DNA of 55,641 nt from Vulcanimicrobiota bacterium (GTDB lineage: Bacteria; Vulcanimicrobiota; Vulcanimicrobiia; Vulcanimicrobiales; Vulcanimicrobiaceae), in contig PLED01000108.1 in NCBI GenBank assembly GCA_003136355.1, forward strand, positions 17,365 through 73,005. The letters run 5' to 3'. Below the pieces are notes generated by a model, which was given only the letters and a program-made list of their open reading frames with translations, searched no databases and was not told where the DNA came from. The translations under genes and the position numbers were made by a program. Position 1 is the first letter of the stretch, and every line of letters starts with the position of its first letter. Shown here one piece after another: positions 13,083-27,373 of this stretch.

Positions 13083-13115
13083 GCACGAGTGGCCTCGCCA
13101 GAGAACCGAACGCGC

Positions 13116-13679
13116 ATGCAATCAGTAGAGGGAAAACGTATCGCCGCGCTTGTGGGCGACGGCTTCGAGGAATCTGAACTCACCGAACCCCGCCGCGCCT
13201 TGGAAGAGGCCGGCGCGATCGTGACCATCGTCGGGATCGACGAGAAGTCGCGCCAGAAAATCCGCGGCAAGCGCGGACTGGACGAGGGGCAAACCGCCAA
13301 AGCCGAGGAGTTGGTGGCCGACGTCACGGCCGAGGACTTCGACGCTCTGCTCATTCCGGGCGGCACGTCCCCGGATCACATCCGGACGAACAAAGACGTG
13401 CAGCGCCTCGTGCGCGAGTTCGACGCAGTCAAGAAACCGATGTTCGTGATCTGCCACGGTCCGCAAGTGTTGATCTCGGCGCAAATCGTGCGCGGCCGTC
13501 AGCTGACCGGCGTCGCCGCAATCGCCGACGACATTCGCAACGCCGGCGGGTTATATCGCGATCAACCGGTCGTGCAAGACGGCAACTGGGTGACGTCGCG
13601 CACTCCTGACGATCTGCCGCAATTTAATCGCGCGATCGTCGAGAAGCTCGCGATGGCGATTCCTGCGCCCGTCGTTTAG
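13116..13679 (+). CDS. DJ-1/PfpI-family protein
   Basis: RIAALVGDGFEESELTEPRRALEEAGA, DALLIPGGTSPD, PMFVICHGPQVLISA; ATG at 13116 within ORF 13089..13679. Confidence 0.9.
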   Translation: MQSVEGKRIAALVGDGFEESELTEPRRALEEAGAIVTIVGIDEKSRQKIRGKRGLDEGQTAKAEELVADVTAEDFDALLIPGGTSPDHIRTNKDVQRLVREFDAVKKPMFVICHGPQVLISAQIVRGRQLTGVAAIADDIRNAGGLYRDQPVVQDGNWVTSRTPDDLPQFNRAIVEKLAMAIPAPVV

Positions 13680-13683
13680 GGTC

Positions 13684-14052
13684 TCATTCGCGCCGCAATC
13701 GCATCCACTTGATCTGACCAAGTGGGCCAAGACGCTTTTGTAAGTTAAGGTCTATGAAGTCGTTGCGCGCAAGACCCTCTACGAATTCCACTTCCGCAAG
13801 CGAACGCACGTTATCGTCACCGTTCGCCATAACGTATTCCATGAAGTCAAAAGTACGATGCAGTAACGAAGAAGGGTGGGCCGAGCTCAGCTCACCCTTC
13901 GATTGAGCGGAGACCTCTTCTAGAATTGCTGCAATCAACAGAGCATTCATGTTTCCGCGGCCCCACTCTGCGACATGGGCATCGAGGAGACCGGAGAACT
14001 CGGGCAACCGTTCGCGAACCAGGTCTTGGAACTCGGTAGGTCCGATGCTCAC
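13684..14052 (-). CDS. DUF7674-like hypothetical protein
   Basis: FDFMEYVMANGDDNVRSLAEVEFVEGLARND...LGPLGQ resembles the DUF7674 pattern (from memory); ends the pncB operon. Confidence 0.45.
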   Translation of the reverse strand: MSIGPTEFQDLVRERLPEFSGLLDAHVAEWGRGNMNALLIAAILEEVSAQSKGELSSAHPSSLLHRTFDFMEYVMANGDDNVRSLAEVEFVEGLARNDFIDLNLQKRLGPLGQIKWMRLRRE

Positions 14053-14055
14053 GCG

Positions 14056-14655
14056 TCAGCCGATCACAGCGTCCCAGCGCGCGAGCGCCTCGCCATATTG
14101 GCGTAACCCGATGAAGCCGGCGATTCCGCAGAAGAGAAACGCTGCGGGCAACTGCGGATATTCCAGCAGCACGATGATCGCTGCGACAACGCCGGCTAGC
14201 AGAATGTAAACGGCTTGCCAAAGGCCGGTGCGAACCGTCGCACAGAGCGCGACAATCGAAACCGCACAGGCGCACGCGAAGGACAGAAGGACTGGCGCAC
14301 CTGCCAAGTCGCGCGGTCCCGATGAGATGCCGGCGACGATCCAATACGCGGCTAGCGCAATCACAACTCCAAGGCTGGGCACAAGCGCGATGGCGCGCGC
14401 GACTTCGCGTGCGTACATCGGGGCGGCTTGTTCGCAAAGTTCTAGTTCCCGCATCCGCCCGCCGCGTTGTGCAAGCGCGAAATAGATTCCGGCAAGCGAG
14501 CCGAACAGCGCCGCTCCGAGGGCATGTGCGCCTAGGTCCGAATGCATTTGCAACGCGGCAAATAGTGCGGCTGCGGCGGCGACGTAAAGAACCTGCCCGC
14601 CGAACCGCTGCAAACGAGTGAACGCGATCGCGGAAGCTACCGAGCGATAAATCAT
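14056..14655 (-). CDS. Multi-pass membrane protein (putative partner of the adjacent ABC-like NBD)
   Basis: Five to six hydrophobic segments; ATG at 14655 overlaps the upstream stop as ATGA. Confidence 0.6.
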   Translation of the reverse strand: MIYRSVASAIAFTRLQRFGGQVLYVAAAAALFAALQMHSDLGAHALGAALFGSLAGIYFALAQRGGRMRELELCEQAAPMYAREVARAIALVPSLGVVIALAAYWIVAGISSGPRDLAGAPVLLSFACACAVSIVALCATVRTGLWQAVYILLAGVVAAIIVLLEYPQLPAAFLFCGIAGFIGLRQYGEALARWDAVIG

Positions 14656-15221
14656 GCCGGCACCGCGCATGCTCGGGAAAATCGAGCGGCTTCGTTTTCC
14701 GAGCCGTGCGTTGAGAAGATCGCGCACGTCTTGGCTGCATCAACGATCTGAGGACCGTAAACGGCCTGTGGGCGATCTAGCACCAGCAAACGTGGCTGCG
14801 CAATCAGCGCGCCGGCCAGCGGATAGGCGAACGATTCGTGTATGCCGTCGAGTCCGGCGATAATATGCCGCGCGCGCACGACACTTTCGGCTTGCGGCAA
14901 TTGCCATAGCGCCGCGCGGTATTCGATGTACTGCTCGAAGCTTGGGAATTCGTACGGGAGCGCGTCGTGCGGAACATACCCTGCGAGCCGTTTCACATGA
15001 ACCGGCTGAATGCGCGGATCGAAGGCGCCGACGTATACGGCGCCGCCGGATGTACGGACCAGTCCCGCGGCCATCATTGCAACAATTGCCGCCGCGCGAT
15101 TACCGGCGCACGCGTGCGCGAGCCGGTTGCCCTCCTCGAGTGCGACGTTTTGCGCTGATACGAGTTCTTCGCCGCCGCGCCGGAAGGTCGCGTCGCGCAT
15201 CTCGAGCAGCATGTTACTCAA
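14652..15221 (-). CDS. Degenerate ABC transporter ATP-binding-like protein
   Basis: ABC NBD layout (LEMRDATFRRGGEELVSAQNVALEEGNRLAHACAGNRAAAIVAMMAAGLVRTSGGAVYVG ... QPRLLVLDRPQAVYGPQI) but Walker A, signature and catalytic Glu lost. Confidence 0.6.
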   Translation of the reverse strand: MSNMLLEMRDATFRRGGEELVSAQNVALEEGNRLAHACAGNRAAAIVAMMAAGLVRTSGGAVYVGAFDPRIQPVHVKRLAGYVPHDALPYEFPSFEQYIEYRAALWQLPQAESVVRARHIIAGLDGIHESFAYPLAGALIAQPRLLVLDRPQAVYGPQIVDAAKTCAIFSTHGSENEAARFSRACAVPA

Positions 15222-16320
15222 CCAGTTTTAGACGTGGGTTCGGACGTTCGGGACGACCGACTTTGTGGCACTCGCGCCACTCGCCGCCGGTTTCGAGCGC
15301 GACGACGTCGGCAGTATATTCGGTGCGCCCGCTGCCTGCGCCCAAGAAGAACGCGCCGCCGACGGCATACGCGTCGACCGGAACTTTATCGTGCTCGAAT
15401 TCGCGTATGCGCTGCGCAGTGAAACCGCCGCTGGCGACGATGCGCACGTGTTTGAAACCCTCGGCGTCGAGCGCGCGTCGCACGTTGAAGACGAGCTGCG
15501 GTATGACCCCGGTCGGTTTGAACGTGCCCATAATATTCCAGATCGATTTGTCGACAAGCGTTTGCGACGTGTCCAAACGCACGCCCCACAGTCGGTCACC
15601 GAGCGCGCGCGCTACTGCCAAACTCGTGGCGACACAGTCGTTATCGAAATCGACAAGTGAAATGAGGTTGACGTCACGATCGATGTACTCGGCAAATTTT
15701 TGCGTCGCAAGCACGGTGTCGCCGCCGTACGCTGCGATCAGCGCGTGCGGGACGGTTCCCATTCCGCCTGCGCCCCACCACTCGGCGTTAGCGTCGGTGG
15801 AAACACCGAGCGCGCCGGAGATATACGCAGCATAACCGTCGCCCGTCTGCACCAAGTGGTGATCGAAGCGCGCCGGGAAAAACAAAACTTGCTTGCCGTT
15901 GGCAGCGGTCACGATTTCGCGCGCATTGGTCGCGATGCGCGTCCGCCGCGAAAGCACGCCGAGATAACACGTTTCCAGGTGAGCGAATATCTCGTAATCG
16001 CCTTCGATCATGAGCGCGGTTTCGTATGGCGCGATACGGTCGCCGTCATAGAGCGCGTGCACGCGCAATTGTTTCCAGCCGTCTTCCCAATCGCCTGAGG
16101 GAAGACGCTTCCCCGAGCACAACCGCAGAATCGCGATGGCCTCGTCGATGCCGCAGAGCACCGCGTCACTGCGCTGAAAGACTTGCATGCGGACCGTCGG
16201 ATGGTAGTCGTCGCGCTCGAGAATCTGCCGGGCGCGGTTGAAGTACGTGTCGGAGTAATAGCCGTCACGCATCTTCTCGACGGGCAAATTAAAGATTTCC
16301 GGCGGCAGCCTGGTAGGCAC
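15214..16320 (-). CDS. pncB: Nicotinate phosphoribosyltransferase
   Basis: MRDGYYSDTYFNRARQIL, SLVDFDNDCVATSLAVARALGDRLWGVRLDTSQTL, VRIVASGGFTAQRI. Confidence 0.88.
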   Translation of the reverse strand: MPTRLPPEIFNLPVEKMRDGYYSDTYFNRARQILERDDYHPTVRMQVFQRSDAVLCGIDEAIAILRLCSGKRLPSGDWEDGWKQLRVHALYDGDRIAPYETALMIEGDYEIFAHLETCYLGVLSRRTRIATNAREIVTAANGKQVLFFPARFDHHLVQTGDGYAAYISGALGVSTDANAEWWGAGGMGTVPHALIAAYGGDTVLATQKFAEYIDRDVNLISLVDFDNDCVATSLAVARALGDRLWGVRLDTSQTLVDKSIWNIMGTFKPTGVIPQLVFNVRRALDAEGFKHVRIVASGGFTAQRIREFEHDKVPVDAYAVGGAFFLGAGSGRTEYTADVVALETGGEWRECHKVGRPERPNPRLKLVE

Positions 16321-16349: not shown

Positions 16350-18080
16350 GTGCCCTCGAATACCGAGATTGCCGAGACCCTGCTGCGCATCCGGAAGCTC
16401 ATGGAGCTCGCCGGCGAGACGTTTTACAAGTTCACGGCCTACGAGCGGGCCGCGGCGACGCTCGAAAATGCGCCGCCCGTCACCGACCTGCTGGCCGCGG
16501 GCGAACTCACCACGCTGCCCGGCATCGGTAAGTCCCTGGCCGCCACGATTGAGGAGATCGTGCGCACGGGCACCTGCGGGCAACTCGAACTGCTTCAGCA
16601 ACGCTATCCGCCGACGATTTTCGAAGTCCTCGGCGTTTCGGGCATCGGCATCAAGACCGCCGCGATGCTTTTCGAAACGTACGGCATTGGGTCGCTTGAA
16701 GATTTGGAACGCGCGATCGATTCGGGAGTACTGGCCGAAGCGCCGCGCATGGGTCAGAAGACCGTTGAGAACATCCGGCGCGGAATCTTGGCCTACCGCG
16801 GACGGCTGCGGCGCACGCCACTCCCGCGCGCGATGACTATCGCGCTCGAAGCCGTGACGTATCTCGAAGCTGGTCCGGCGGTTCACAGGATAAGTTTTGC
16901 GGGCAGTTTGCGGCGCGCGGAGGTTACCGTCGGCGACATCGACATCGTTTGCACGTCGGACTCCGCTGCGGCCGTGATCGATCATTTCGTGCGATGGGAG
17001 CGCGCGCGCGCCGTTCTTTCCGAAGGGCCGACCAAAGGCAGCATCTGGCTCGACGACGGGCTGCAAATCGACCTACGCGTCTTACCGGATAACGTCTACG
17101 GTAATCTGCTGCAGCACTTCACCGGCAGCCGCGAACACAACATTCAAGTGCGCGAGCACGCCGCGCGCAAGAACCTGCGCGTCAGTGAAAACGGTATCTT
17201 AAATTTGGAAAACGGTGACGTTTTTACGAGCCGTGACGAGCAAGGCGTCTACGCAGCGCTCGGCATGCAGTACGTTCCGCCGGAGCTGCGCAGCGGTATC
17301 GATGAGGTCGAGCTCGCGCTGCGCAACCAGCTTCCGGAATTGCTCGAAGCGTGCGACGTGCGCGGCGATTTCCACATGCACACGACATTCAGCGACGGCC
17401 GGCAGACGCTCGAGGAGATGATCGCTGCGGTAGCCGCGCGTGGCTACGAATATCACGCGATCACCGATCATTCGCCTGCGCGCGGCGTCATCGGCTGCAG
17501 CGCAGACGAGCTGCGGACGCAACGCGAAACGATTCGCGAGCTCGGCGACAAGTACGGCGTGCGGACCCTGTGGGGGAGCGAGGTCGACATTCTGCCCGAC
17601 GGCTCGATGGATTTTCCCGACGACGTGCTGCAAAGCATGGACATCGTGATCGCCAGCGTGCACTCGTCATTCCGGCAAACGCGCGAGGAGATGACGGCGC
17701 GGTTGATTCGCGTCTGCGAAAATCCGTACGTGACGATCATCGGCCACCCCACCGGGCGGAAGGTCGATGGATTCGAGGGATACGACTACGACTATGACGC
17801 GGTCTTTGCGGCCGCCGCGCGCACCGGTACTGCCCTCGAAATCGACGGCCAGCCCAAGCGGTTCGATCTGCCCGCGAATCTCGCGCGCCGCGCGAAAAGC
17901 CTCGGTGTTACACTGACCGTCGACAGCGACGCGCACGATGCCGGCCAGCTCGGCAACATCGACTTAGCCATCGTTCAGGCCAGGAGAGCGGGCTTAACGC
18001 GCGACGATGTCCTGAACGCGCGGCCGCTTGAGGGCGTGCTCGAGTTCGTGCGTTCGAAGCGCGAACGGCTTAAGCGATGA
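16350..18080 (+). CDS. polX: DNA polymerase/3'-5' exonuclease PolX
   Basis: N-terminal HhH/Pol-beta-like region (GSLRRAEVTVGDIDIVCTS) plus PHP domain (DFHMHTTFSDGRQTLEEM, VTVDSDAHDAGQLGN); GTG start. Confidence 0.93.
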   Translation: MPSNTEIAETLLRIRKLMELAGETFYKFTAYERAAATLENAPPVTDLLAAGELTTLPGIGKSLAATIEEIVRTGTCGQLELLQQRYPPTIFEVLGVSGIGIKTAAMLFETYGIGSLEDLERAIDSGVLAEAPRMGQKTVENIRRGILAYRGRLRRTPLPRAMTIALEAVTYLEAGPAVHRISFAGSLRRAEVTVGDIDIVCTSDSAAAVIDHFVRWERARAVLSEGPTKGSIWLDDGLQIDLRVLPDNVYGNLLQHFTGSREHNIQVREHAARKNLRVSENGILNLENGDVFTSRDEQGVYAALGMQYVPPELRSGIDEVELALRNQLPELLEACDVRGDFHMHTTFSDGRQTLEEMIAAVAARGYEYHAITDHSPARGVIGCSADELRTQRETIRELGDKYGVRTLWGSEVDILPDGSMDFPDDVLQSMDIVIASVHSSFRQTREEMTARLIRVCENPYVTIIGHPTGRKVDGFEGYDYDYDAVFAAAARTGTALEIDGQPKRFDLPANLARRAKSLGVTLTVDSDAHDAGQLGNIDLAIVQARRAGLTRDDVLNARPLEGVLEFVRSKRERLKR

Positions 18081-25913: not shown

Positions 25914-27373
25914 GTTAAACCCGCCATCAAGCGGCCGATCTTCCCGCGATCGATATCCGCTCCGCTGAACGATCCGGTGATCTTTCCGCGGAACATCACG
26001 AGCACCCGATCGGCGAGCGCCAAAATCTCGTCGAGTTCGAACGAGATCAAAAGTATCGCGGATCCGCGGTTGCGGGCTTCGATCAGTCGCGACTGCACGA
26101 GCGCGGCCGCGCCGACGTCGATGCCGCGGGTCGGCTGGTAGGCGAGCACGAAGCGCGGATCGCCGAGCAATGCGCGTCCAACCAGCAGTTTCTGCTGGTT
26201 GCCGCCGGAAAGCGTTCGCACGGCGACGTCGGCCGAAGCCGCGCGCACGTCGAACCGTTCGATGATCGCCTCGGCATCGGCTCGCGCAGCGGCCCAGTTG
26301 GTGAGCGCCCCTTTACGAATGCCCGGTAAGTTTTGCCGTCCGAGAATCGCGTTTTCGACGATCGACCAGTTGAGCACCAACCCTTCGTGATGCCGGTCCT
26401 GCGGAACGATACCGATGTTCTCGCGATGCTTCAGCGCATCCGCACTGCCGTCGAGTTCGATTGCGCCCGTGTACGGGATCATTCCGGCGATCGCGTCGGC
26501 CAGCGCGGTTTGTCCGTTGCCTTCAACGCCCGCGATGCCGACGATCTCGCCGGCGCTCACTTCAAAAGAAAGATCGGATACCGTCGTCGTGTCGACACCC
26601 GCGCTCAGATCGCGCACGCTCAAACATGGCTGCGTGCCCGTGGCTTCGCGTTGCGCGACCTGCGGCAATTCGCCGCCGACCATGGCGCGCGCGATCTCGT
26701 CGGTGCTCGTTTCAGTCGTAAGATAGCGCGCGACGATCTTGCCGTGACGCATGACGCTCACGCGCGTCGTGTAATCGATGACTTCTTGCAGTTTGTGCGT
26801 GACGACCAGGATCGCGGTGCCGCGTTTGGCGAGCTGAACCACGGTCGCGAAGAGCGTCGCGATTTCTGCCGGAGCGAGCGCTGCCGTCGGTTCGTCGAGC
26901 AGCAGCACCGACGGTTCGCGTTCGAGTTCGCGCAAGAGTTCGACGCGCTGTTGAACGCCGATCGGCAGTTCTTCAACGAGCGCATCCGGATCGATCGCCA
27001 GCCCGTTGCGCTCGGCGAGCTCCGCCACGCGCGAGCGCGCGCCGTCGACGTCAACCAGCATGCCTTTGCGCGGCTCGCGGCCGAGCATGATGTTCTGCCA
27101 GACGCGCAGGCGCCTCACGAGTTCGAAGTGCTGGTGCACCAAACCGACGGTGCCGTTGGTTTCGATGGTGCCGTCGTCAGGCTTGACGGCGCCGAAGGCG
27201 ATATTGGCGAGCGTCGATTTGCCCGCGCCGTTTTCGCCGACGAGCGCGTGAATTTCACCAGGGAGCAGATCGAGATCGACGCCGTCGACCGCGATGACGC
27301 CGGGATAGACCTTGCGAATGCCGCGCAGTCTTAGCGCGGCACCGGCGAGATCTAGAGCTTGACCGGTTTCCAG
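25910..27373 (-). CDS. ABC transporter ATP-binding protein with two NBDs (nucleoside/BmpA-type); start codon probably CTG
   Basis: ORF track begins at TTG 27142, but the same open frame upstream encodes LRLRGIRKVYPGVIAVDGVDLDLLPGEIHALVGENGAGKSTLANIAFGAVKPDDGTIETNGTVG, i.e. Walker A of NBD1. Confidence 0.85.
   Translation of the reverse strand: METGQALDLAGAALRLRGIRKVYPGVIAVDGVDLDLLPGEIHALVGENGAGKSTLANIAFGAVKPDDGTIETNGTVGLVHQHFELVRRLRVWQNIMLGREPRKGMLVDVDGARSRVAELAERNGLAIDPDALVEELPIGVQQRVELLRELEREPSVLLLDEPTAALAPAEIATLFATVVQLAKRGTAILVVTHKLQEVIDYTTRVSVMRHGKIVARYLTTETSTDEIARAMVGGELPQVAQREATGTQPCLSVRDLSAGVDTTTVSDLSFEVSAGEIVGIAGVEGNGQTALADAIAGMIPYTGAIELDGSADALKHRENIGIVPQDRHHEGLVLNWSIVENAILGRQNLPGIRKGALTNWAAARADAEAIIERFDVRAASADVAVRTLSGGNQQKLLVGRALLGDPRFVLAYQPTRGIDVGAAALVQSRLIEARNRGSAILLISFELDEILALADRVLVMFRGKITGSFSGADIDRGKIGRLMAGLT

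Follow-up and report, generated by a model that had tools for sequence, protein, structure and literature searches.

NosF and NosY, of the ABC-2-type NosDFY system, are encoded by a pair of genes, one for a nucleotide-binding domain (NBD) and one for a transmembrane domain (TMD) with six transmembrane (TM) helices. In heterodimeric ABC exporters with a degenerate site, the altered NBD is functionally retained and one site is still catalytic (PMC7756269). One catalytic site remains in TM287/288, TmrAB, TAP and CFTR. SbmA, one of the SbmA/BacA-like peptide transporters (SLiPT), has an ABC-like TMD, is driven by protons and works without ATP (PMC13316013); it has no NBD, and its relative among ABC transporters is the TMD of YddA. 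In FtsEX and similar non-transporting ABC complexes, the ABC architecture serves signalling rather than transport, and FtsE is an active ATPase (PMC11627006). We found no bacterial precedent for an ABC system with both sites dead; our coverage of the literature was incomplete, so this absence is not proof.

We analyzed a pair of genes in a 55,641-nucleotide stretch of DNA (the window) from a draft genome of the Vulcanimicrobiota (2.52 Mb in 111 contigs). One gene encodes a pseudo-NBD (NBD') and the other a membrane protein. Our results are best explained if an ABC-2 exporter lost ATP hydrolysis and its pseudo-NBD was kept as a scaffold or gate without catalytic function, and we consider this probable. 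The pair lies among four open reading frames that we confirmed on the minus strand of the window sequence (13684-16320). Their coordinates, and those of the flanking genes and conserved segments, are in Table 1.

Table 1. Genes and conserved segments of the locus, in positions of the window.
Feature	Position	Strand	Remarks
DJ-1/PfpI protein	13089..13679	+	right-hand flank, conserved
DUF7674 protein	13684..14052	-	low-GC gene; outside the module
Membrane protein, ABC-2-like six-TM transmembrane domain, partner of NBD'	14056..14655	-	199 aa; 4-bp ATGA overlap
C-terminal tail of membrane protein, LRQYGEALARWDA	14068..14106	-	conserved; family consensus ALRQYGEALARYDP
Coupling-helix motif of membrane protein, EQAAPMYAREVARAIA	14386..14433	-	cytoplasmic, conserved; family consensus E.SAPLFGRELARAKA
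Pseudo-NBD (NBD'), ABC ATPase fold without nucleotide-site motifs	14652..15212	-	186 aa
H-loop remnant STH	14706..14714	-	His in 39/54 family members
Walker B remnant LLVLDRP	14769..14789	-	catalytic Glu replaced by Arg; Arg in 44/54
HESFAYPLAGAL segment	14805..14840	-	aligns with the helix after the LSGGQ signature; signature itself missing
FDPRIQPVHVKRLAGYVPH segment	14967..15023	-	strongly conserved; runs up to the former Q-loop, where His stands in place of Gln; Q69 and K74 invariant in the window's family and the sister family
Former Walker A segment CAGNRAAAI	15084..15110	-	canonical GxxGxGK[ST]; never Lys at the Lys column in 54 family members
pncB-like nicotinate phosphoribosyltransferase	15214..16320	-	neighbour, probably cotranscribed here; functionally separate from the pair
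PolX-type DNA polymerase with PHP domain	16350..18080	+	left-hand flank, conserved

We found that the four genes are tightly coupled, as had been stated in the preliminary description, with one junction corrected. NBD' starts more likely at the ATG at 15212 than at the TTG at 15221, because relatives in the genus have ATG or GTG at the former position. With this start, pncB and the NBD' gene are probably separated by a 1-nt gap, in place of the 8-bp overlap first described. The ATG of the membrane gene (14655) lies within the stop of the NBD' gene (ATGA), and a 3-nt gap precedes the DUF7674 gene. Beyond the window, such coupling is conserved for the NBD' and membrane genes only; adjacency to pncB is partly conserved, and the DUF7674 gene is private to the species. 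A scan for promoters and terminators gave signals no better than those in shuffled sequences. PADLOC had no match for any of the four proteins, and on this basis a role in anti-phage defence was rejected. Normal ABC ATPases are present on the same contig: a 504-aa frame at 26129-27286 (minus strand) has two intact ABC NBD matches and is probably a sugar-type tandem ABC ATPase.

By its predicted fold and by sequence homology, NBD' belongs to the ABC ATPase (NBD) superfamily. As a single sequence, it had no Pfam match. The best curated models were those of two ABC-2 ATPases, GldA (TIGR03522, 2.5e-5) and DrrA (TIGR01188, 1e-4), and both NCBIfam matches were weak and far below the curated cut-offs. 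In contrast to the single sequence, a profile of the NBD' family matched LptB and other ABC NBDs of the PDB (E 1.6e-13). The AlphaFold model was a confident ABC fold (pLDDT 93.5, pTM 0.90), and Foldseek against the PDB placed the ABC NBDs 1vpl and TM_1403 first, with NosF among the matches. The NBD layout first read from the 14652-15221 product was thus confirmed. None of the members of the window's family, scanned singly, was recognized by Pfam ABC models, and its proteins therefore probably carry a hypothetical annotation.

We scored the catalytic motif columns over 54 NBD' sequences of the window's family. The Walker A motif GxxGxGK[ST] was found in none (0/54); the Lys column was Ala in 53 of the 54, and the former P-loop segment occurred in 51 distinct versions. 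No sequence had the SGG of the LSGGQ signature, Gln at the Q-loop column, or Glu at the catalytic column. The Walker B Asp was kept in 46/54, and the H-loop His was lost in one deep subclade and in the sister family. The departures from the motifs reported earlier for the window (CAGNRAAAI at Walker A, no LSGGQ, LLVLDRP without the catalytic Glu) could all be read in its sequence, and the accompanying suggestion that NBD' probably does not hydrolyse ATP is strengthened by the missing site motifs in all 54 homologues. Judged from these motifs, ATP hydrolysis by NBD' is very unlikely.

Other parts of the protein were conserved in the family: FDPRxQPxxxKR before the Q-loop, YRAALW after it, LLVLDRP, and mostly STH. 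With the H-loop His in 39/54 sequences and the Walker B Asp retained as above, NBD' could still have an atypical mode of binding nucleotide or another ligand. One explanation of the pair builds on this: NBD' would be a ligand sensor that binds nucleotide or another metabolite non-canonically and gates the membrane protein. Conservation of STH, LDRP and the FDPRxQP..KR segment is consistent with such a sensor. However, the former P-loop segment belongs to the more variable stretches of the alignment (2.06 bits, compared with 1.04 bits for the pre-Q segment), and a deep subclade does without the H-loop His. We regard a ligand sensor as rather unlikely.

A second (sister) family of the same order has a half-degenerate NBD'. 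In the members that we read, GPPGSGKST, GYVPQE and LLLIDEP are kept (Walker A, Q-loop and catalytic Glu), and the signature motif and the H-loop His are both missing. DrrA was again the best curated model, at 7e-24. The simplest reading of these sequences is that the signature was lost before the two families split and that the rest of the site was lost later, within the window's family. In the sister family, a three-gene operon for an amino-acid-type ABC importer, with a GlnQ/EhuA-like NBD, lies between pncB and the NBD' gene. At three such loci (L170, L171 and L172), the inserted operon encodes a substrate-binding protein, a permease and the GlnQ-like protein, and the half-degenerate NBD' gene overlaps the end of the GlnQ-like gene.

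We found that the pair is under purifying selection. Median dN/dS values within the genus were 0.124 (NBD'), 0.112 (membrane protein) and 0.051 (pncB), and there were no internal stops in the six compared sequences. An intact NBD in close relatives had been named as the mark of a recent pseudogene; all of the close relatives are degenerate likewise. A recent pseudogene is ruled out by the dN/dS values, the lack of stops and the confident fold. An older decaying pseudogene operon might be argued from the disappearance of every catalytic motif and from loss of the pair in particular lineages. We consider this highly improbable, given dN/dS values of 0.11-0.12, intact frames, the confident fold, and a 4-bp overlap of the two genes (ATGA or GTGA) in 28 of 29 named loci; in the 29th, the start was not located by our script.

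The two genes of the pair are inherited together. Strong profile matches to NBD' and matches to the membrane protein were found in the same 59 (59/59) of 103 genomes of the order; in two of the 59 (G024 and G102), a broken contig left one gene cut or counted by way of its partner. The pair is kept intact in some 28 genera. In a GTDB-wide scan, all true relatives of NBD' were in metagenome-assembled genomes (MAGs) of Candidatus Eremiobacterota / Vulcanimicrobiota or in bins matching the same genomes, and the only NBD' homologue outside the phylum was at one Verrucomicrobia locus (L154). We rejected that locus as a relative: its ABC-2 ATPase is a normal one, accompanied by a large permease. The membrane protein was found nowhere else in the phylum beyond the one order. 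The pair is therefore confined to one order of Ca. Eremiobacterota, a phylum whose main order has been named Baltobacterales (PMC9758169); the genome of the window probably falls in that order. Nearly all of the compared sequences come from MAGs.

The locus is conserved far beyond the strain of the window, against the earlier caution that its neighbourhood might be peculiar to that strain. Its order is polX (opposite strand), pncB if present, the NBD' gene, the membrane gene, and then DJ-1, XRE-like and SDR genes (opposite strand). Presence of the pair required at least four changes on a quick tree built from two flanking genes of this one locus, polX and DJ-1. Several lineages have lost the pair, indicating that it is dispensable. 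One MAG with 5% contamination (G071) has two full polX-pncB-NBD'-membrane-DJ-1 loci (L089 and L090, on contigs C2 and C3) with NBD' about 88% alike, probably from two strains in one bin.

The membrane protein resembles the TMDs of ABC-2 exporters such as NosY. Its AlphaFold model (pLDDT 86.9) comprises six TM helices and an elbow helix, and a short helix on the cytoplasmic side separates TM2 from TM3. This predicted secondary structure has the layout of ABC-2 (type V TMD) exporters, with elbow helix, six TM helices and coupling helix, and agrees with the roughly six-TM partner first described, which proves to be obligately paired with NBD'. The top six Foldseek matches were all NosY chains (probability 0.96-1.00, TMq 0.55-0.64, with weak E-values of 0.09-0.45), followed by PmtCD and ABCG transporters. 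By sequence there was one match only, to ABC2_membrane_5, and it was weak (0.077). Because the Foldseek E-values are weak, the ABC-2 assignment relies on the consistency of the matches, the helix layout and the pairing with an NBD.

Conservation of the membrane protein is concentrated in two blocks that would be expected to face the NBD. The coupling segment had 1.20 bits and the C-terminal tail 0.64 bits, compared with 1.8-2.3 bits for the TM helices. The mean of the two blocks was 0.98 bits, versus 1.92 bits for all columns, and only 0.3% of random two-block placements were as low. Selection thus appears to act mainly where an NBD would dock.

We propose that the pair descends from a NosFY/DrrAB-like ABC-2-type exporter whose ATPase subunit would have lost its nucleotide chemistry stepwise in one order of Ca. 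Eremiobacterota. By analogy, a dimer of NBD' would dock on a dimer of the TMD, at its coupling helices and C-terminal tails. There it may act as a non-catalytic scaffold or gate, in a complex that works without ATP hydrolysis and might be a facilitator, a gradient-driven transporter (compare SbmA) or a sensor. This proposal retains from the preliminary description the idea of a repurposed NBD, since NBD' is degenerate, not recently so, selected, and accompanied by a six-TM partner.

Alternatively, the pair could be half of a heteromeric ABC transporter with the active NBD encoded elsewhere. Heterodimeric exporters commonly include a degenerate NBD (PMC7756269), and NBD' of the sister family still has Walker A and Glu, so that a partner with LSGGQ could complete one competent site. 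NBD' of the window, however, has neither Walker A nor signature, so that, with the site architecture reviewed in PMC7756269, each composite site would be expected to miss one half. A complete site would then be missing from a homodimer and also from a heterodimer with a normal NBD, which favours a non-hydrolysing complex with NBD' holding or gating an ABC-2-like TMD. In addition, no second NBD or TMD gene is conserved at the locus in the window's family, and there is always one NBD' for each TMD. A heteromer is therefore unlikely, somewhat more so than the ligand sensor.

We found that the presence of the pair is statistically independent of that of pncB. In the 103 genomes, 27 had both, 32 the pair only, 24 pncB only and 20 neither (Fisher p=0.43). 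At eight loci without the pair, polX, pncB and DJ-1 are all retained in this order, and the pair is missing from the interval between the last two. Presence of pncB required at least eight changes on the quick flank-gene tree, with many losses in which the pair was retained. These results indicate that the pair is neither needed by nor dependent on pncB. The activity of the window's pncB product as a nicotinate phosphoribosyltransferase is itself predicted from sequence, its score being 339.9 against a curated cut-off of 378 for its best equivalog model. Loss of this type of pncB is repeated in the order, notably in a large genus (g5), and raises the question of niacin salvage there, if any.

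It had been suggested that the locus is a niacin/NAD-linked membrane module, in which PncB and the membrane pair would act together, for example in niacin uptake coupled to phosphoribosylation. This fits the position of pncB directly upstream of the pair, with the 1-nt gap in the window and upstream also in many relatives, and the adjacency of pncB and pair wherever both occur in the family loci examined. It does not fit the lack of consistent co-occurrence, the genomes that retain polX-pncB-DJ-1 without the pair, the separate histories of the two on the flank-gene tree (at least eight changes versus at least four), or the amino-acid-type ABC operon that separates pncB from NBD' in the sister family. 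We therefore consider a niacin module very improbable and reject it as a functional unit. Adjacency of pncB to the pair reflects synteny that has been inherited, and the genes are probably cotranscribed.

The DUF7674 gene is a local insertion. At this locus it was found in the window's species only, and in every genus relative examined the site is occupied by other ORFs. Related proteins were found in two other genomes of the order, elsewhere in the genome and with 22-25% identity. The gene has a GC content of 53.7%, compared with 62.4% for the window. We therefore rejected it as a fourth component; with the gene missing at the locus in every relative examined and pncB distributed independently, the four-gene unit originally described is not supported. 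The spot just downstream of the membrane gene varies across the genus (L089-L093), with different ORFs in each species examined: for example, L090 has an opposite-strand ORF that is hydrolase-like, and L093 has a membrane protein and a small HTH protein.

If our interpretation is correct, these loci would document, in nature, how an ABC exporter became a non-ATPase transporter, a channel or a sensor. The broader claim, that complexes derived from ABC transporters run without ATP across the order, with a dead NBD as structural or gating subunit, while a half-inactivated sister form persists, has in our judgment about even chances. Retention of a dead NBD' in an inseparable pair, together with the half-way stage in the sister family, makes it testable whether an NBD has a role in a transporter besides burning ATP.

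Among the closest known systems, NosFY shares its gene organization with the pair and provides structural matches: NosY leads those of the membrane protein and NosF is among those of NBD'. The pair differs in having no NosD, NosL or NosZ neighbours and a shorter TMD (199 aa). The ATPase site of NosF is intact, unlike that of NBD'. DrrA and GldA differ from NBD' in their signature motif, absent from both families, and in the other catalytic motifs, absent from the window's family. FtsEX, with its active ATPase, also differs in this respect. SbmA is a precedent for ATP-free function of an ABC-like TMD; it has dispensed with an NBD, whereas here a pseudo-NBD is kept with an ABC-2-like TMD. In contrast to the reviewed degenerate ABC transporters, which keep one catalytic site (PMC7756269), the sole NBD gene of this locus lacks both site halves, and the pair is still selected.
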